Assembly (NCBI RefSeq): GCF_017161565.1
Contig: NZ_CP066796.1
Span: forward strand, 2,232,001 to 2,296,000
Direction of reading: 5' to 3'
DNA length: 64,000 nt
Source: Erwinia amylovora
Lineage (GTDB): Bacteria; Pseudomonadota; Gammaproteobacteria; Enterobacterales; Enterobacteriaceae
Below the pieces are notes generated by a model, which saw nothing but the letters and a program-made list of their open reading frames with translations, did not search any database and was not told the origin of the DNA. The position numbers were made by a program, and so were the translations under genes. Positions 9,999 through 49,490 of this stretch are shown here, one piece after another. Positions within the stretch are counted from its first letter, which is position 1; every line of letters starts with the position of its first letter.

Positions 9999-10074
9999 TC
10001 CTCTGTAGTTCAGTCGGTAGAACGGCGGACTGTTAATCCGTATGTCACTGGTTCGAGTCCAGTCAGAGGAGCCA
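9999..10074 (+). tRNA. tRNA-Asn (anticodon GTT)
   Basis: Seventy-six bases with encoded CCA. Acceptor arms TCCTCTG and CAGAGGA pair fully, the T-arm carries GTTCGAGTC, and the anticodon GTT is at 10032-10034. A near-consensus promoter precedes it and a strong terminator follows. In E. coli several asn tRNA genes lie in the same amn-yeeO neighbourhood and serve as island integration sites. Confidence 0.97.
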
Positions 10075-10280: not shown

Positions 10281-10754
10281 TCACTCAGCCCTCTTCTTAA
10301 GTGGGTAGGTCACCAGAGGCTTGATTTCCTTAAGTACAAACATACTTTGCATCTCTTTGATCCCCGGTAACCTGCGCACCACAGCCATGGCAAATTCGGC
10401 GTAGGAGTCCAGATCGGACGCCACTACCTGCAACAGAAAGTCGGCATCGCCACCCACGCTGTAACAGGCAACCACATCTTCCAGGGCTGTCACCTCCTGC
10501 TCGAACTTTTTAGCATCAGCTTCGCTGTGGCTGTCAATCGCTACCCGGATAAAGACCATCACGCCCAGGCCTATTTTTTTTCGGTTGAGCACGGCACGGT
10601 AGCCCTGGATGACCCCCTCTTCTTCCAGCTTACGCACCTTACGCCAGCAGGGCGATGCCGACATTCCTATCTTCTCTGCTAACTCCTGGTTAGTTACGCG
10701 AGCATCGGCTTGCAGGTGTTTGAGAATTTTCATTTCTGTCGGACCAAGTGCCAT
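10281..10754 (-). CDS. Lrp/AsnC-family transcriptional regulator
   Basis: I take the ATG at 10754 as start: AAGGA lies about 10 bases upstream and the product then begins MALGPTEMKIL, aligned with Lrp family N-termini. It has 157 residues. An N-terminal winged helix-turn-helix (ELAEKIGMSASPCWRKVRKLE) is followed by the alpha/beta RAM domain that binds amino acids. It is divergent from an eight-gene operon of amino-acid-like chemistry and a LysE-type exporter. By analogy with Lrp-type regulators next to exporters it should sense the exported or precursor amino acid and control that operon. Palindromes in the shared intergenic DNA are its likely operators. Confidence 0.9.
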   Translation of the reverse strand: MALGPTEMKILKHLQADARVTNQELAEKIGMSASPCWRKVRKLEEEGVIQGYRAVLNRKKIGLGVMVFIRVAIDSHSEADAKKFEQEVTALEDVVACYSVGGDADFLLQVVASDLDSYAEFAMAVVRRLPGIKEMQSMFVLKEIKPLVTYPLKKRAE

Positions 10755-10789
10755 ACCGGTAAATTCCTTTCTTTTTCGCGGCAAAAACA

Positions 10790-10802
10790 GGAAATTATTT
10801 CC
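10790..10802. promoter_or_regulatory. Palindrome GGAAATTATTTCC in divergent region
   Basis: A perfect 13-base dyad between the Lrp-type regulator and the divergent operon. Its size and AT-rich centre fit an Lrp/AsnC-type site. Confidence 0.45.
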
Positions 10803-10803
10803 A

Positions 10804-10820
10804 GATAACATTTTGTTATC
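10804..10820. promoter_or_regulatory. Palindrome GATAACATTTTGTTATC, probable operator
   Basis: GATAACA and TGTTATC arms are perfect over a 3-base centre. A half-site GGTAACA recurs at 10831-10837. The spacing between sites is close to one or two helical turns, as Lrp-type octamers often require. Confidence 0.55.
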
Positions 10821-10916
10821 ACCCAATATAGGTAACAATTTCCCTTAAAGCCACTGCATAATACATTTAATCACTTAATGATTCTTCGCAAGCAGCATGA
10901 GGAGAAAGCGACCCCC

Positions 10917-11273
10917 GTGTTAATGCATATTGTACTGTTTACATTGAAAAAAGAACTTGACTGGACCTCTGAAGAGGTAATCGATGCCGAGAGAGCGACC
11001 CATGCACACCCAAATTTTATTGATGAAATCAAGGGTTGGGCCTGTGGCAGGAATACCACGCAACGTGAGATCGCAGCTGATTTTATGGTGATGGGCCTTT
11101 TTGAAAGCCGTGACGATCTTAACGCCTATCTGATTCATCCTGACCACCAGGCCGGCGTAAAAAAATGGCAAGCCATCGCAGACTGGAAAGTCGTTGATAT
11201 TGAGCTTAACAGCCATTCTACGCTAAACAGGGGTTTGCTTGCGCGACTAAATGAACTCACTGCCGTTTGCTAA
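10917..11273 (+). CDS. Dabb (stress-responsive A/B barrel) domain protein
   Basis: First gene of the operon. GTG at 10917 and ATG at 10923 are both possible starts; GAGGAG lies 13 bases before the GTG. The product has about 118 residues and opens with the family's M-H-I-V-L-F strand. A dimeric alpha/beta barrel fold is expected, related to EthD and small monooxygenase or cyclase proteins. The F-x-x-x-x-D-L-x-x-Y-x-x-H-P-x-H motif near residues 65-80 is typical. Dabb proteins in natural product clusters act as cyclases, isomerases or chaperones; the substrate here is unknown. An open frame extends upstream to 10878 but has no ribosome site. Confidence 0.7.
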   Translation: MLMHIVLFTLKKELDWTSEEVIDAERATHAHPNFIDEIKGWACGRNTTQREIAADFMVMGLFESRDDLNAYLIHPDHQAGVKKWQAIADWKVVDIELNSHSTLNRGLLARLNELTAVC

Positions 11274-11297
11274 AAAGACGCTTATAAAGGACTGAAG

Positions 11298-11720
11298 ATG
11301 AAGTTTGAAGCCAGCCAGCATCGCTGCACGATTGTAATTGACAGAGATCTCCCAGCCGGCCTTGCGATAAATGCAGCCAGCGTCATCGGCATTAGTTTTG
11401 GTCGCACGGTTGGAAATCTTGTCGGCCCTGATATGCAAAGTCAGGATGCAGTGAATTATCCGGGAGTGATTTACAGCCCCCTTCCCGTCCTGCTCGCAAC
11501 GGGAGATTATATTCATCAGCTGCTAAATAATGCTGAAAGCGATGACGAAATTTACGTTATGCCCTTTAGCGCATTAGCCCAGTCGTGCAAGAATTATGAT
11601 GAGTACGGAGAGCGAATTTCTTCGGTAAACAGTAATAACATTGAATTAGTGGCAATAGGGTTGATCGGCCCAAAAAAGAAAATCACCAAAATGACAGGGA
11701 ACCTGCCACTTTATAAATAG
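11298..11720 (+). CDS. DUF2000 family protein
   Basis: A 140-residue protein whose N-terminal half carries the DUF2000 pattern: a CTIVIDRDLPAGLAINAAS stretch, a G-x-x-x-G segment, the GPD motif and a Y-x-x-L-P-V-L strand. The family has a peptidyl-tRNA-hydrolase-like fold and no proven activity. It lies 24 bases after the Dabb gene and about 100 bases before the AMP ligase gene, all in one direction, so it probably contributes to the same pathway. Its function cannot be stated. Confidence 0.7.
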   Translation: MKFEASQHRCTIVIDRDLPAGLAINAASVIGISFGRTVGNLVGPDMQSQDAVNYPGVIYSPLPVLLATGDYIHQLLNNAESDDEIYVMPFSALAQSCKNYDEYGERISSVNSNNIELVAIGLIGPKKKITKMTGNLPLYK

Positions 11721-11823
11721 TGTTAAAGCAAACCATCCCGGTAAGTCAGCAGCAGATATGCTGCTGACTGTATCTGAGTATTCAAATCTTAACGTTCAAC
11801 ACTTCTCTATAGAGGCTGGCAAG

Positions 11824-13233
11824 ATGTACGCGATTTTTAAAGATGGTATAATTGAGAAGGCAAAGGAAACTTATAATCAACACCTGAAATTTGAAGCAGG
11901 AGAAATTAGCTTAAAACAACTTCATACCCTGCAAGAAAATGCACTCAGAGAGAATATTAAATACGTAGTAAATAACTCTCCCTTTTATCGTGAACGTTTA
12001 CAGGGTTTAACGGCAGCTGACATTGATACCCTGACGACCGCAAAAATAAGCTCTCTGCCTTTCACCACCAAGGATGATCTGAGAAGCCACGGTGCATCAT
12101 TAGCCTCTGCTCCCCTGCATCAAAGCTGGATTTACTGTGAAACAACCGGCACAACGGGAAATCCCACACCCTGTCCGCGTAATGAGGTCGATTCAATTCA
12201 CAATAATACGCCGCTGATAATTCATTACCGGGATATATTTGCACAGCACGGTGAAAATCATATCGTGGGGGTAATGGGGCCAAGCGAGCTGCACTCAACC
12301 GGCGACACGTTCGAAGATGTCTTTCGCAGCATGGGCCACAGCGTGGTCAAGATGTGGCCGCGTTCGCCTGTCGTTGGCATGAAACGTGTCTTGGCATTGA
12401 TCAACGAATTACGCATTACCGCCCTGGTCTGCACCCCCGCCGTGGCTATTTCCGTGGCGCGCTTTATCAAAGATTCCGGTCAGGATCCGGCCACTACCAG
12501 CGTAAGGTTAATTCTCACCGTAGGTGAGCTGACCACTCCGGCGCTGTTAAGGAACATTGGTGATGTATGGGGCGCGCATGTTTACAGCTGTATGTACGCC
12601 TCACAGGAGTCATCCATTCTTGCGGTCTGCGCCAGCGACAGTCATCTTTACACCATCCCGTTAAACAATTACTACGAAATTATCGATCCTGTCAGTGGTA
12701 AGGGTTACGACATCACTAAAGGTCAGGTGACCGGTGAGCTTGTTATTACCCATCTTTATCAGGGTCAGAAACCTCTTATTCGCTACCGCACTGGCGATAT
12801 GGTTCGCTCAACTTATATGCCTGACGGCAGTCAAAAAATTGTTCCCATTGGGCGCGTGCGTGATGTACTTACCCTCAACGGTACAGCTTACTGTGCATGG
12901 GATTTAGAGGCAGCGCTTCTTGAGCATCTGAACGGCTGTCTGGACTATGCCATTCAGATTGACAGAAAAGACCATGCCGATGTCCTCAACATTACGGTCG
13001 AGATGTTCAACAAAGATGCCGACGTCGCCCCGGTCCTTAGTAAGGTTAAGGCCCATCTGAAGCAAAAGATTGCCGGCGTTGAAATCAGTCTCGTCATTGG
13101 CGAAACCAGCGGTGTGACTGGCACTTCGGCTATGGTGAGCTGGAAAGCAGCCCGTATTCATGATTTGCGGCCCGCTGCCGACAACAGCGATCGAGAAGCG
13201 GCTCTGGCGTTGATCAACCGGGGATTTAAATAA
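11824..13233 (+). CDS. PaaK-like AMP-dependent ligase/adenylation enzyme
   Basis: ATG at 11824 with AGAGG 7 bases upstream; the longer frame from 11758 has no ribosome site. The product has 469 residues. It belongs to the phenylacetate-CoA-ligase branch of ANL enzymes: the AMP-binding loop is TTGTTGNPTP near residue 105, and the Y-R-T-G-D motif lies in YRTGDM near 323. The C-terminal mobile domain is present. Such enzymes activate a carboxylic acid as an acyl-AMP and load it on CoA or another acceptor. No carrier protein gene lies nearby, so transfer to CoA or straight to an amine is likely. The next gene starts inside its stop codon. Confidence 0.8.
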   Translation: MYAIFKDGIIEKAKETYNQHLKFEAGEISLKQLHTLQENALRENIKYVVNNSPFYRERLQGLTAADIDTLTTAKISSLPFTTKDDLRSHGASLASAPLHQSWIYCETTGTTGNPTPCPRNEVDSIHNNTPLIIHYRDIFAQHGENHIVGVMGPSELHSTGDTFEDVFRSMGHSVVKMWPRSPVVGMKRVLALINELRITALVCTPAVAISVARFIKDSGQDPATTSVRLILTVGELTTPALLRNIGDVWGAHVYSCMYASQESSILAVCASDSHLYTIPLNNYYEIIDPVSGKGYDITKGQVTGELVITHLYQGQKPLIRYRTGDMVRSTYMPDGSQKIVPIGRVRDVLTLNGTAYCAWDLEAALLEHLNGCLDYAIQIDRKDHADVLNITVEMFNKDADVAPVLSKVKAHLKQKIAGVEISLVIGETSGVTGTSAMVSWKAARIHDLRPAADNSDREAALALINRGFK

Positions 13234-14201
13234 TGAAGCAGGACGTCCCCAACAAAACCAGTCAGTCAGCACCGGCCCACCATTGCTGGAGCTACCTCAA
13301 TGGCGAGTTCGTTGAGGCCAGTGCCGCCCTACTGCCTGTCACAACACAGGCGTTTAATTATGGAACCGCAGTATTCGAGGGGATCCGTGGTTATACCAGC
13401 GTTATTGATGGGCAAGTCAACGTCTTTCGGCTGGATGACCATCTCACCCGACTTTGCCAGTCAGCCTCGCTGCTGTTAATTGATGACCTGCCTGAACACC
13501 AGGCATTGAAAGAGTTAGTGCTGACGCTCCTGAAGCGTAACGAAGCCAGTAATGACTGTTACATCAGGCCGATTGCGTATAAACGCCATCTTCTGCCGGG
13601 TAGTGGTTTCGGCGTGAAGCTTTCAGGCGTCAGCAGCGGACTGTCAGTCAACAGTCTGGATATGCAAGCCTATGTTAAGCAGGACGGTATTGCCTGTACC
13701 CTCTCTGCCTGGCGTCGTGTTGCCGACAGCTCGATACCTGTCAGAGCCAAAATCACCGGCAGTTACGTTAACTCAGCACTGGCAATGGAAGCAGCACACC
13801 GCGGGGGATATGACGATGCCATTATGCTTAACCAGCACGGCTACGTTGCTGAAGCGACCACATCTAATGTCTTTATAGTCAAGAGCGGAAAGCTGATCAC
13901 CCCGCCGGTGACTGCACATATTTTGCAAGGCATCACGCGCGACACGGTTATAACGCTTGCCTCAGATTTCCTTGGTCTGGAAGTGATTGAGCGCGACATA
14001 TTACCCTCGGAGTTATTAACGGCTGATGAATGTTTCCTGACGGGTACTGGCGTCGAAATATCCCCTGTAGCCCGGATTGATCATCACCGGCTTCACAGCA
14101 TGGACTCGCAGAGTATATCCCTTTCGCTGAAAGAACTTTATGAGAAAGCGGTTCGCGGGGAATTGAACGCCTTTAACCACTGGCTGACGCGTATTTGTTA
14201 A
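13233..14201 (+). CDS. Class IV (branched-chain-type) aminotransferase
   Basis: Overlaps the ligase stop by one base (TAATG), which implies coupled translation. A 322-residue PLP enzyme of the IlvE/D-amino-acid-transaminase fold. FEGIRGY appears near residue 50, the PLP lysine is expected in the A-K-I-T-G-S-Y motif near 170, and the E-A-T-T-S-N-V-F phosphate-binding segment near 210. It resembles branched-chain aminotransferases, but its place inside this operon rather than with ilv genes suggests it makes or consumes a pathway-specific amino acid. Donor and acceptor are unknown. Confidence 0.85.
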   Translation: MKQDVPNKTSQSAPAHHCWSYLNGEFVEASAALLPVTTQAFNYGTAVFEGIRGYTSVIDGQVNVFRLDDHLTRLCQSASLLLIDDLPEHQALKELVLTLLKRNEASNDCYIRPIAYKRHLLPGSGFGVKLSGVSSGLSVNSLDMQAYVKQDGIACTLSAWRRVADSSIPVRAKITGSYVNSALAMEAAHRGGYDDAIMLNQHGYVAEATTSNVFIVKSGKLITPPVTAHILQGITRDTVITLASDFLGLEVIERDILPSELLTADECFLTGTGVEISPVARIDHHRLHSMDSQSISLSLKELYEKAVRGELNAFNHWLTRIC

Positions 14202-14226
14202 GTTAAATAGTCTATTTAGGTGAGAA

Positions 14227-14808
14227 ATGAGCTACCATTTCATGAATATAGGGCTGGACCGTGCGGTGGATTTTCCAGTCCACACATTAGGTCCGGCCGG
14301 AACAAGCAGTGAATATGCTTCGCAGTTTTTCAATGACTGGATGAATGAAAACTACGAGAAATGCCCGCGCGAAATTCATCTCAATGACTCCTACGAGTGC
14401 GCAAGAGAGAATATTAAAGATGAAAAGGGTTTATTGATCGTCGCTAATGCGTACCCGAATATCAATGAATTTTACATGGATACCAAGTTAAAGCTGCTGG
14501 CAACGTTTTTTTATGACACTCCGCTTTATGGTTTAGTCGCTAATAAAACCCTACCTGACCGGCCATTATATATTGCTTCGCACCCGGCGCCCATCCCGTT
14601 AATAGAAGAGTTATTACCTGCGGGGATATCTGTCGAACGGATAGTAAAAATGTCATCTACCAGTGCGGCTGCACACGCTGTGGCCATCGGTGAAGTGGAT
14701 ATCGCTTTAACAACGGAAGTGGCCGCCCGAATACACAACCTTGACTTTGTTTCACCTACGCGCCCCATCCATATGCTCTGGTCGGTGTTTGCTTCTCATA
14801 TTCGATAA
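14227..14808 (+). CDS. Prephenate-dehydratase-fold protein (BacA-like)
   Basis: A 193-residue protein with the family's opening motif HTLGPAGTSSEYA near residue 20 and an S-S-T-S-A-A-A segment near 142 at the usual place of the active-site Ser/Thr cluster. There is no C-terminal ACT domain, so it is not the normal bifunctional or regulated dehydratase of phenylalanine synthesis. Length and the lone catalytic domain fit the BacA/AerD group of prephenate decarboxylases used in bacilysin and aeruginosin pathways. It may instead act on another acidic substrate. The aminotransferase gene directly upstream is consistent with a nonstandard amino acid route. Confidence 0.65.
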   Translation: MSYHFMNIGLDRAVDFPVHTLGPAGTSSEYASQFFNDWMNENYEKCPREIHLNDSYECARENIKDEKGLLIVANAYPNINEFYMDTKLKLLATFFYDTPLYGLVANKTLPDRPLYIASHPAPIPLIEELLPAGISVERIVKMSSTSAAAHAVAIGEVDIALTTEVAARIHNLDFVSPTRPIHMLWSVFASHIR

Positions 14809-14825
14809 TTCATCAAGGAACAAAA

Positions 14826-15371
14826 ATGTCCATCCTTAAAATGCACACTCTTGACAGCGCACCGGCGGCCAGCCGCCCGTTGTTGCAAAGCTCCATTGAT
14901 GGTTTTGGCTGGATCCCCTGGCAAAGCGCGTACATGGCGGAGTCACCCGCCCTGCTCGCGTCTTATCAGTATGCCCATGACGCCTTTTCCCAATGTTCTC
15001 TGAACGAAGAGCAGCGCGCGATTGTCTGGATTACTACCGGTACCCTTAATCAATGTGATTATACGGTTCAGGCCCATAACTGGATCGCGCAACATAAAGG
15101 CGTCGCGGAGGAAACGCTGAAAACACTGGCTCACGCGCCTGAAACCCTTCCCGACAAGCTGGCCGTGTTATATCGCTTTACATGCCAGGTGGTTCTGGCT
15201 CAAGGCCAAATCCCCCAACAGGCGGTGAGGGAAATGCTGGCTGCTGGCTACAGCCAGCAGAATGTACTGGACGTGATTCTGGGCGTATCTCAGAAAACCA
15301 TGTCAACGCTGCTGAACAGCATTGCAGGCACGCAGATTGAGCCACAGTTTCAATCTGTTACAACACGCTAA
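14826..15371 (+). CDS. AhpD/carboxymuconolactone-decarboxylase-like protein
   Basis: A 181-residue all-helical protein of the AhpD-like superfamily. The family's active site is C-x-x-C followed by H; here the segment reads NQCDYTVQAH, so the first Cys and the His are kept and the second Cys is Thr. Thiol-disulfide peroxidase chemistry is therefore unlikely, and a decarboxylase or isomerase role, or a non-catalytic one, is possible. It sits 17 bases after the BacA-like gene and 19 before the ornithine cyclodeaminase-like gene, so it is firmly in the operon. Confidence 0.7.
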   Translation: MSILKMHTLDSAPAASRPLLQSSIDGFGWIPWQSAYMAESPALLASYQYAHDAFSQCSLNEEQRAIVWITTGTLNQCDYTVQAHNWIAQHKGVAEETLKTLAHAPETLPDKLAVLYRFTCQVVLAQGQIPQQAVREMLAAGYSQQNVLDVILGVSQKTMSTLLNSIAGTQIEPQFQSVTTR

Positions 15372-15390
15372 AAGAGAGAGATAACTCAGC

Positions 15391-16392
15391 ATGCAATTCA
15401 TCGGTCGTAAGCTGGTTGAACAGGCATTGTCCCCGGCCAAAAGCTTACAGTTAAGCCGTGATGCGTTTGCCCTGCTCGGTCAGGGCAAAGTCAGACAGAC
15501 ACTGCGCAGCGTTATCGCCAGTGATGACGGTAGTTTGATGGGCACAATGCCCGCCTGCATTACCGGTGGGCGGTACGCCGGTTTTGGACTTAAAACGGTA
15601 AAAGTTGATTTTAGTCACTCTACCCGCCGCACATCCCATGAAGGATGTATTTTGCTTTACGATGCCTCGGATGAAGGCGATATGGTTCTGGTTGATGCCG
15701 CCTCGGTGACGGAATTACGCACAGCGGCTGCTTCCGCACTGGCCACGGACGTTCTGGCAGCCAGCAGTGCAAGCCGTCTCGCTATTTTAGGGACAGGCGT
15801 TCAGGCAAGAAAGCATTTCCTGATGATGCTGGCGGTTCGGCCGATCGCGCATCTCACCCTCTGGGGACGAAGCGAAGCGAGCGCATCGGCGTTTGCCTGC
15901 TGGTGCCGCCAGCAGTCTGGGTTGCCTGTCACCATTGCATCGACGCCGGCTCAGGCCGTTTCAGATGCGGATATTATCTGTACCCTGACCGCTTCGAAGG
16001 AGGCATTCCTTCATGCCGCTGACCTTCCTGCTCGTTGCCATATTAATGCCATTGGCGCTTCTGCTCCCGGCTTTCAGGAAATTTCGCCCGAAGTTTACTC
16101 CGCCGTAGAACTCTATGTTGATTCCAGAGAGGCAGTATGGAGTGCGTCCACCTGCATGCTGCAGGCGAGAGAACAGGGATTTTTACCTCAGCACAATGTG
16201 GGCATTGAGCCAGCAGAATGGCTAAAAACTGATCGTCATTCGCCCCCCAGATCTGAACGAACGTTGTTTAAATCCGTGGGCCTTGCCGTTCAGGATTTGG
16301 TATTTGCCCGTGAAATCGTCAATCAGACTAACGCATCCCTTAAACGAGATTGCAAATATTCTGCATCACACATTTCTTTTCCACAGGAATAA
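15391..16392 (+). CDS. Ornithine cyclodeaminase / mu-crystallin family protein
   Basis: A 333-residue NAD(P)-binding protein. The Rossmann motif LGTGVQARKH lies near residue 135, and the N-terminal substrate half has the K-T-V-K-V segment near 70. The family includes ornithine cyclodeaminase, alanine dehydrogenase and the SbnB-type imine reductases of siderophore pathways. All act on the C-N bond of an amino acid. Its place in this operon suggests a reductive amination or cyclisation step, or imine reduction. The expected proline-forming role cannot be told from sequence. Its last residues read close to the exporter start. Confidence 0.8.
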   Translation: MQFIGRKLVEQALSPAKSLQLSRDAFALLGQGKVRQTLRSVIASDDGSLMGTMPACITGGRYAGFGLKTVKVDFSHSTRRTSHEGCILLYDASDEGDMVLVDAASVTELRTAAASALATDVLAASSASRLAILGTGVQARKHFLMMLAVRPIAHLTLWGRSEASASAFACWCRQQSGLPVTIASTPAQAVSDADIICTLTASKEAFLHAADLPARCHINAIGASAPGFQEISPEVYSAVELYVDSREAVWSASTCMLQAREQGFLPQHNVGIEPAEWLKTDRHSPPRSERTLFKSVGLAVQDLVFAREIVNQTNASLKRDCKYSASHISFPQE

Positions 16393-16394
16393 CT

Positions 16395-17021
16395 ATGTTA
16401 GGAAGCGCACAAATAATTTCTTACATCGCCGCGCTGGGATTAGCTGCGGCCATCCCCGGGCCGGGTATGACTGCGCTGGTGGCGCGCAGCGTCAGTGGTG
16501 GCGCTGTGGCCGGCTTTACCATGCTGGGCGGACTCATTCTTGGGGACTTAATTTATCTGTCTACGGCAGAATTTGGCCTGGCGGTGATCGCGCATAATTA
16601 CACATCGCTGTTAACGCTGATCAACTGGGCAGCGGCGCTCTATCTGTGCCTGCTCGCATGGCAGTTTTGGCGCCATCAGCCTGAGGCTGTGAATATCGAT
16701 CAAAAATCGACAAAGCGAGAGTTGGCGTCCGCCTGGTTTTCAGGACTGTCAATAACGCTGGGAAATCCCAAGACCATTGCATTCTATCTGGCTATCCTGC
16801 CGCTGGTCGTCTCTCTTGATAACGTATCCTTTACAACCTGGGGGATGATGCTGGTGCCGCTAACCGTATTTGTGCTGCTGGCCGTGGGCGCAGTTTTTAT
16901 CCTCGCTGCACTTAAGGTCCGTCGGTTCCTGACCAGCGCTAAAGCGCAACAGCGTCTGTTCAAAACAACAGGGGTTATCATGATGCTCGCGGCATTTGGC
17001 ATGGTAGTGAAGACGCTCTGA
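16395..17021 (+). CDS. LysE/RhtB-type amino acid exporter
   Basis: The ATG at 16395 lies 2 bases after the preceding stop with AGGA before it; the longer frame from 16350 overlaps the upstream gene and is rejected. It has 208 residues and six hydrophobic segments. The first helix ends with the family's signature P-G-P, and the G-N-P-K-T motif is near residue 128. LysE/RhtB proteins export amino acids and derivatives by proton exchange. As the last gene of the operon it is the natural exporter or self-protection gene for the pathway product, and such exporters are often controlled by Lrp-type regulators. Confidence 0.85.
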   Translation: MLGSAQIISYIAALGLAAAIPGPGMTALVARSVSGGAVAGFTMLGGLILGDLIYLSTAEFGLAVIAHNYTSLLTLINWAAALYLCLLAWQFWRHQPEAVNIDQKSTKRELASAWFSGLSITLGNPKTIAFYLAILPLVVSLDNVSFTTWGMMLVPLTVFVLLAVGAVFILAALKVRRFLTSAKAQQRLFKTTGVIMMLAAFGMVVKTL

Positions 17022-17182
17022 GGCTCACTGTTGCCATTGGCCGTTAAACGGGGGGATGAACAGGGACCGATCGTTAATGATGAGTTGACCCATGCGATGG
17101 AAAGTGTAAAAAGGGGTTGCAATCACTTGCCAGCTGCCAGCACTGGCGCAATCCAATAAGCACATCTGACCAGGACAACGTA

Positions 17183-18061
17183 ATGAAAACAAAAAGGTAT
17201 CTCTCCTTCTTACTGAGCTGTGCGCTGCTTGGCTCCACCCTTACGCCACAGGCTGCCGTTGCAGAAGAAAAGTTCGCCTGGGGCGAGCGCTGGCTACATC
17301 TGCCAGCAACGCCGGCACCTGATGCCAGCCTGAAAACGGGTTATGCGCAAGTGAATGGTATTGCACTGTTCTATGGCACCGTTGGCCAGGGCAGTCCGGT
17401 TATTTTTCTTCATGGCGGTCTGGCTAATTCCGACTATTGGGGCAATCAGATCCCGGTAATTGCACGCACGCATCAGGTCATCGTGGTTGACAGCCGCGGA
17501 CACGGGCGCAGTTCACGCGACAGCCGTCCGTTTGGCTATGACCTGATGACCGACGATGTCGTGGCGTTGATGGACCAGTTGAAGATCGCTAAGGCAGATA
17601 TTGTCGGCTGGAGTGATGGTGCGATCATCGGCATTGATGCCGCAATGCGATACCCCGACCGCGTTGGCAAAGTGTTTGCTTACGCGCCCAACACCACTAC
17701 CGCCGGGGTGCGTACAGATACTGCCAACAATCCGCTGTTTGCCCGCTATATTACCCGCGCCAGCGGCGAGTACCGTCGGCTATCTAAAACGCCACAGCAA
17801 TATGAAAACTTTGTCGGGCAAATCGGCGAAATGTGGCAATCACAGCCTGACTGGAGTGACGATCGGTTGAAGAAGATCCACACTCCGATTTTGATTGCGG
17901 ATGGCGATCATGATGAAAGTATTATCCGTTCACATCTGGAACATATTGCCGCGACGATCCCACAAGCCGGGCTGCTGATTATGCCTGACAGCAGTCACTT
18001 TGCTTTTTTACAGGCCCCAAAAGAGTTCAATGATGCGCTGGTTAACTTCCTCGCCAGATAA
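17183..18061 (+). CDS. Secreted alpha/beta hydrolase
   Basis: ATG at 17183, preceded by AGGA; a longer frame starts at 17117. The first 27 residues form a Sec signal peptide ending A-V-A-E, so the enzyme is periplasmic or exported. The 292-residue product has the oxyanion motif HGG near residue 80, the nucleophile elbow G-W-S-D-G near 152 and the catalytic histidine in DSSHF near the C-terminus. Substrate unknown; candidates are esters or lactones. It lies 160 bases after the exporter gene and may be a separate unit. Confidence 0.8.
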   Translation: MKTKRYLSFLLSCALLGSTLTPQAAVAEEKFAWGERWLHLPATPAPDASLKTGYAQVNGIALFYGTVGQGSPVIFLHGGLANSDYWGNQIPVIARTHQVIVVDSRGHGRSSRDSRPFGYDLMTDDVVALMDQLKIAKADIVGWSDGAIIGIDAAMRYPDRVGKVFAYAPNTTTAGVRTDTANNPLFARYITRASGEYRRLSKTPQQYENFVGQIGEMWQSQPDWSDDRLKKIHTPILIADGDHDESIIRSHLEHIAATIPQAGLLIMPDSSHFAFLQAPKEFNDALVNFLAR

Positions 18062-27988: not shown

Positions 27989-28036
27989 ATGGCACGCGTT
28001 CAGTTCAACCACCATCACCACCATCACCCTGACTAG
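27989..28036 (+). CDS. hisL: his operon leader peptide
   Basis: Fifteen residues, MARVQFNHHHHHHPD, with six consecutive histidine codons. Ribosome stalling at these codons when His-tRNA is short prevents the downstream attenuator from forming. The E. coli peptide has seven His and reads MTRVQFKH at its start, so this is a close variant. Confidence 0.97.
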   Translation: MARVQFNHHHHHHPD

Positions 28037-28098
28037 TCTTTCAGGCGATGTGTGCTGGAAGACATTCAGGATCTTCCAGCGGTGCAGAACGCAAAATC

Positions 28099-28135
28099 AG
28101 CCCCCGGAAGATCGCCTTCCGGGGGCTTTTTTTTT
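28099..28135 (+). terminator. his attenuator
   Basis: AGCCCCCGGAAG (28099-28110) and CTTCCGGGGGCT (28116-28127) form a perfect 12-bp stem with a 5-base loop and a nine-T tail, between hisL and hisG. Confidence 0.97.
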
Positions 28136-49212: not shown

Positions 49213-49257
49213 AAAAAAAGCACGCTACCGCCTCTGAGTTGCAGCTCTCAGCGTGCT
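49213..49257 (-). promoter_or_regulatory. ops (RfaH) element within a terminator-like hairpin
   Basis: The exact 12-base ops sequence GGCGGTAGCGTG lies on the minus strand at 49221-49232. AGCACGCT and AGCGTGCT (49250-49257 and 49219-49226 on the plus strand) form an 8-bp stem enclosing CTGAG/CTCAG, and a run of seven T follows. RfaH recruited at ops is expected to allow transcription through the long O-antigen operon. Confidence 0.88.
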
Positions 49258-49490
49258 GATGCATCTGACTATTGTCTGTTGTAAACAGCCACTTACTGGT
49301 AAGCCAAGTATGAATTATATCATTCGCATTTTATGAAAACTAATGAAAATGGTACATTCCCGGCACTGTTTTGGCCGATTTAGCAGTGTAAAGGCTACTG
49401 CTTCAGGCTGGATAAGATACTTAATCTAAGACTAAAAAGATATGACTTTCTGATGGTTAACAATACATTCAACAGTTTTTTTTAACAAAA

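Follow-up and report, generated by a model that had tools for sequence, protein, structure and literature searches.

An Erwinia amylovora operon as the probable source of dihydrophenylalanine, with DUF2000 as a candidate immunity gene

L-2,5-Dihydrophenylalanine (H2Phe), a phytotoxic amino acid, has reportedly been isolated from Erwinia amylovora by Feistner, and Crawford and co-workers are said to have described dihydro-tyrosine as an intermediate of its biosynthesis. Here, we describe an eight-gene operon from a 64,000-base stretch of an E. amylovora genome (the window; G000:C1:2232001-2296000, in a genome of 3,835,776 bases and two contigs), which probably makes and exports H2Phe, a toxic phenylalanine look-alike, and provides protection against it. 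The closest described system is that of Photorhabdus luminescens, in which dihydrophenylalanine has been traced to a prephenate decarboxylase and a transaminase, according to a passage on Crawford et al., 2011 in a review (PMC5897657). In the genus Erwinia, the title of one paper states that E. amylovora and E. pyrifoliae strains were differentiated by "synthesis of dihydrophenylalanine" (Gehring and Geider, 2012).

Another cluster, Pantoea Natural Product 3 (PNP-3), was considered because of its gene number. It resembles the operon in having eight genes, a small product and an Erwiniaceae host; however, in the portions of its published descriptions available (PMC7744662, PMC11350110), PNP-3 spans 8,487 bases and occurs only in Pantoea by nucleotide search. 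Compared by description only, the two differ in size and reported distribution, and PNP-3 was rejected.

An eight-gene unit shared with Photorhabdus

The operon consists of eight genes on the + strand (10878-17021), which encode, in this order, a Dabb protein, a DUF2000 protein, a PaaK-like ligase, a branched-chain-type (BCAT-type) aminotransferase, a BacA-like protein, an AhpD-like protein, an ornithine cyclodeaminase (OCD)-type reductase and a LysE exporter. A divergent gene on the - strand (10281-10754) codes for an Lrp/AsnC-family regulator (PF01037, PF13412, PF13404). This arrangement had been described in a first-pass annotation of the window, and the families it assigned to the nine genes hold in Pfam and NCBIfam, with the starts of three genes revised: Lrp at ATG 10754 (157 aa), the ligase at ATG 11824 (469 aa, a length typical of its relatives) and LysE at ATG 16395 (208 aa), so that LysE and OCD genes do not overlap. 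None of the operon genes contains an internal stop. The successive gaps are 24, 103, -1, 25, 17, 19 and 2 bases, the last separating OCD from LysE and the negative one reflecting a single base common to the ligase stop and the aminotransferase start. The G+C content is 49.9% in the operon and 48.9% in the remaining window, and a foreign origin is not indicated.

Outside the window, tblastn located all eight genes, in unchanged order, at 13 further fetched loci, namely a Pseudomonas aeruginosa plasmid (L012), nine Photorhabdus loci (L015-L023), two Photobacterium loci (L025 and L029) and L032 (genome G020). The complete set is also present in L081 and, going by its annotation, in Pantoea eucalypti (L099), and the adjacency of these genes is thus beyond chance. 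In Pantoea vagans (L011), the aminotransferase match covers just 54% of the protein (tblastn). The likeness to Photorhabdus is extensive, with the same genes in the same order in 9 of 10 loci and the decarboxylase and transaminase genes adjacent; the two versions differ in that protein identity is 46-60% and in that tblastn did not reveal in any Photorhabdus locus the divergent Lrp gene that accompanies the cluster in Erwinia, Pantoea, Photobacterium, P. aeruginosa and L081. The tenth Photorhabdus locus (L024, also L084; P. namnaonensis) seems cut beyond the ligase, and the aminotransferase, BacA, AhpD-like, OCD and LysE genes were not found in the stretch fetched. The early view of an amino-acid-type pathway that has both a regulator and an exporter was correct, and the unit is conserved in other genomes. 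In contrast, the statement that no pathway was known for this gene set has to be withdrawn, since Photorhabdus, the source organism of the described dihydrophenylalanine pathway, has the same eight genes.

The eight-gene unit is rare. Counting the genome of the window itself, the ligase occurs in 2/60 relatives, 7/314 genomes of the family sample, 1/394 of the order sample and 1/369 of the class sample. On the P. aeruginosa plasmid, pNY8709-IMP, the full operon with Lrp (L012 5460-12279) lies between an upstream IS21-type istB and a downstream replication gene.

Proposed route to dihydrophenylalanine

The BacA-like protein (14227-14808) is weakly recognised by itself (NCBIfam prephenate dehydratase, E 1e-5, no single stretch passing). 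Its relatives carry the name bacilysin biosynthesis protein BacA, and a 53-row alignment of the protein with them contains 28 invariant columns. In an alignment with the host PheA, the Phe that PheA has in its TRF motif is missing from all 12 BacA-type rows (TRPI in the window), and an ANAY-x5-FYMD block, which PheA does not have, occurs in the window and in 15/15 relatives tested. These sequence features point to a gene for a putative non-aromatizing prephenate decarboxylase. A gap of 25 bases separates it from the aminotransferase gene (13233-14201; PF01063, NCBIfam branched-chain transaminase above cut-off, KITGSY motif), and the same neighbours are found in the Photorhabdus locus L016, where the BacA homologue directly follows the transaminase; each of two Photorhabdus genomes searched has one BacA homologue. 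Collectively, the BacA-type features, the Photorhabdus pathway, the title on Erwinia dihydrophenylalanine and the older reports mentioned above lead us to read the operon as an H2Phe biosynthesis operon, and this strain most likely produces H2Phe. Of the two products initially suggested, a nonproteinogenic amino acid acting as an antimetabolite fits this assignment; for the other, an acyl-amino acid, no support was obtained here.

The roles of the enzymes later in the pathway are proposed as follows. After the BacA-like enzyme, which would decarboxylate prephenate with no aromatization and probably takes the first place formerly given to acid activation, the Dabb protein (10878-11273; PF07876) would handle dihydro-hydroxyphenylpyruvate, an unstable compound that the BCAT-type enzyme would transaminate to dihydro-tyrosine. 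Dabb accompanies BacA in other gene sets and therefore probably acts on the BacA product: two Streptomyces records combine Dabb, BacA and a class I/II aminotransferase, one being a bacilysin-like set that includes a cupin gene and two SDR-type (short-chain dehydrogenase/reductase) genes and the other an aminotransferase-Dabb-BacA set, and neither a PaaK-like nor an OCD gene was found in the stretch shown of these records. The PaaK-like AMP-forming ligase (11824-13233; PF00501) and the ornithine cyclodeaminase/mu-crystallin-family reductase (15391-16392; PF02423), the proposed hydride donor, may next replace the ring hydroxyl by hydrogen through activation followed by hydride transfer. This appears to be the most economical proposal because the adenylation motifs of the ligase (TTGTTGNPT, YRTGD and WKAAR in the window) are kept among relatives, the P-loop pattern failing in 1/15 (L012), and the nucleotide motif of the OCD-type enzyme (GTGVQA) is kept in 15/15. 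The AhpD/CMD-fold protein (14826-15371; PF02627) perhaps assists this swap. It has C-x-Y-T in 16/16 sequences, and the CxxC pair that forms the redox motif of AhpD alkylhydroperoxidases is therefore absent. Finally, the LysE/RhtB exporter (16395-17021; PF01810) would export the product, Lrp would sense an amino acid and DUF2000 would protect the cell.

A PaaK-like ligase with 37% identity is carried by a plasmid of Pseudomonas syringae pv. actinidiae (L014 7992-13050), beside anthranilate synthase subunits, an iron-containing redox enzyme, a flavodoxin and an EamA transporter. In this one record examined from the P. syringae group, the gene set is unrelated and uncharacterised, and the locus was rejected as a relative cluster.

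Several considerations weigh against the assignment of H2Phe. The product is deduced from genes, the hydroxyl-removing step has no assigned enzyme, and no correspondence could be established between L016 and the locus tags under which the Photorhabdus genes were characterised. The cluster might instead make another prephenate-derived amino acid, such as dihydro-tyrosine, cyclohexenyl-alanine or an amide that the PaaK-like enzyme would form, H2Phe being absent or an intermediate. Indeed, the ligase has no explained role, and in three Streptomyces plasmid records (L013, L030, L031) a Dabb-PaaK-BCAT-BacA-OCD core adjoins nonribosomal peptide synthetase (NRPS) or polyketide synthase (PKS) genes, with DUF1330 and PhzF-type genes also present, so that the building block may vary. 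DUF2000 was not found in the fetched stretches of these records, a point that also weighs against the overall reading, nor were AhpD-like, LysE and Lrp genes. However, Photorhabdus, a described H2Phe maker in the review passage cited above, has the same eight-gene version, and the title of Gehring and Geider (2012) reports H2Phe for E. amylovora, which makes a different product unlikely. A pathway of the bacilysin/anticapsin type (bacABCDEFG) shares with the operon a relative of the BacA-type prephenate decarboxylase, as the names of the BacA-like relatives recall, but Pfam identifies no cupin isomerase, SDR reductase or ATP-grasp ligase among the eight genes, and the bacilysin-like Streptomyces set with its cupin and SDR genes looks different; such an identity is highly improbable.

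DUF2000 as a candidate immunity gene

While the biosynthetic part of this real and conserved operon is largely covered by a known pathway, the new part is the reading of DUF2000 (11298-11720; PF09391) as an immunity gene. Using an orthologue cut-off of E <= 1e-30, DUF2000 was found in 24 of the 314 genomes of the family sample, among them all 7 with the ligase, two of these ligases being fragments; under a stricter cut-off, it occurs in 3/394 genomes of the order sample. Judged by their fetched flanks, 15 of the 24 genomes have a divergent Lrp-DUF2000 pair without the seven remaining operon genes, 4 have a full operon, 4 a remnant and 1 a truncated Photorhabdus locus. Two of the remnants (G909, L079; G990, L080) keep Lrp, Dabb, DUF2000 and LysE at 60-86% identity; of their enzymes, the beginning of the ligase and the final part of OCD are all that is left. 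The four surviving genes of L079 are open frames. The 23 orphan or remnant loci, five of which are plasmid records, fall in 13 location groups. The DUF2000 ratio of nonsynonymous to synonymous substitution (dN/dS) is 0.05-0.19 in the five lowest-dS pairs and mostly 0.3-0.4 where dS is about 1. On a tree of Lrp and DUF2000 from 30 loci, the distinction between operon or remnant and pair requires 3 changes (mean of 9.1 with shuffled labels), or 9 losses if regain of the operon is disallowed; support is low on several branches.

DUF2000 looks like an immunity gene because relatives that have no production genes keep it, and we propose a protective role for it in preference to a biosynthetic one. 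Its predicted model matches the overall fold of PTH2 peptidyl-tRNA hydrolases in a fold comparison. Tentatively, DUF2000 could be a trans-editing hydrolase of PTH2 fold, which would discharge tRNAPhe mischarged with H2Phe under the control of the amino-acid-sensing Lrp, and the Lrp-DUF2000 pair could be a stand-alone immunity cassette in non-producing enterobacteria. The action on mischarged tRNAPhe is likewise a proposal.

It is also possible, if less likely than not, that DUF2000 has an ordinary amino-acid function controlled by Lrp and was recruited through the chance proximity of the divergent promoter. Pair-only loci exceed full operons by 15 to 4, DUF2000 has no known activity and distant DUF2000 genes lie beside unrelated genes, as in an Aminobacter record where neither LysE nor Lrp is beside it. 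Against such a function, Lrp, DUF2000 and LysE stay together in remnants that have lost the enzymes, Photorhabdus clusters retain DUF2000 though no Lrp gene was found there, and in an Azospirillum record the LysE gene adjoins DUF2000. The immunity reading has its own difficulties. Despite the likeness in predicted fold, the PTH2 sequence profile was unmatched by any of 32 DUF2000 members (E <= 10). In addition, remnant G847 (L053) keeps Lrp, Dabb and LysE but has a DUF2000 with an in-frame stop, remnant G1007 (L098), near a contig end, has Lrp, part of Dabb and residues 1-133 of DUF2000, the DUF2000 of the pair-only genome G147 matches to residue 129 only, and some Pantoea copies are cut (L046). 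DUF2000 is therefore not retained everywhere.

On four Pantoea plasmids forming one location group (L042, L043, L045, L046), a stand-alone B3/4 gene (PheRS-editing-type, PF03483) was observed one to three genes from DUF2000, by Pfam on three of the four and by blastp on all.

The divergent promoter region (10755-10877), which places 123 bases between the Lrp and Dabb ATGs, contains a ACAATTTCC-N12-GCATAAT element common to some relatives, where several full clusters have it upstream of Dabb and several pair-only loci upstream of DUF2000. It is present in 10/14 stretches of the set used to write the pattern and in 3/17 held-out loci, with no occurrence elsewhere in 405,550 bases (both strands counted).

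Genomic site and significance

The operon occupies a variable site next to tRNA-Asn (9999-10074, + strand, ARAGORN), directly downstream of which it lies. Three Erwinia relatives (L034, L035, L036/L037) match the window on the left as far as the tRNA-Asn region and have namA on the right; the sequence in between differs, and the fetched stretches contain no operon genes in this interval. The same amn and MATE genes flank a lone Lrp-DUF2000 pair in L086 and L087, and tRNA-Asn genes are nearby. Directly downstream of the operon, the window has an alpha/beta hydrolase gene (17117-18061), and G020 is without most of this segment at the same site. Rfam elements in the window are His_leader (28012-28134, + strand) and JUMPstart (49221-49258, - strand).

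The reported phenylalanine-mimicking product of the fire-blight pathogen would thus be tied to one concrete operon, and the unexplained final step of its synthesis, the reductive loss of the ring hydroxyl, would be narrowed to a few conserved genes. DUF2000 would gain its first directly testable role, for which full operons, deletion remnants and carriers of the regulator and DUF2000 alone form a natural series.

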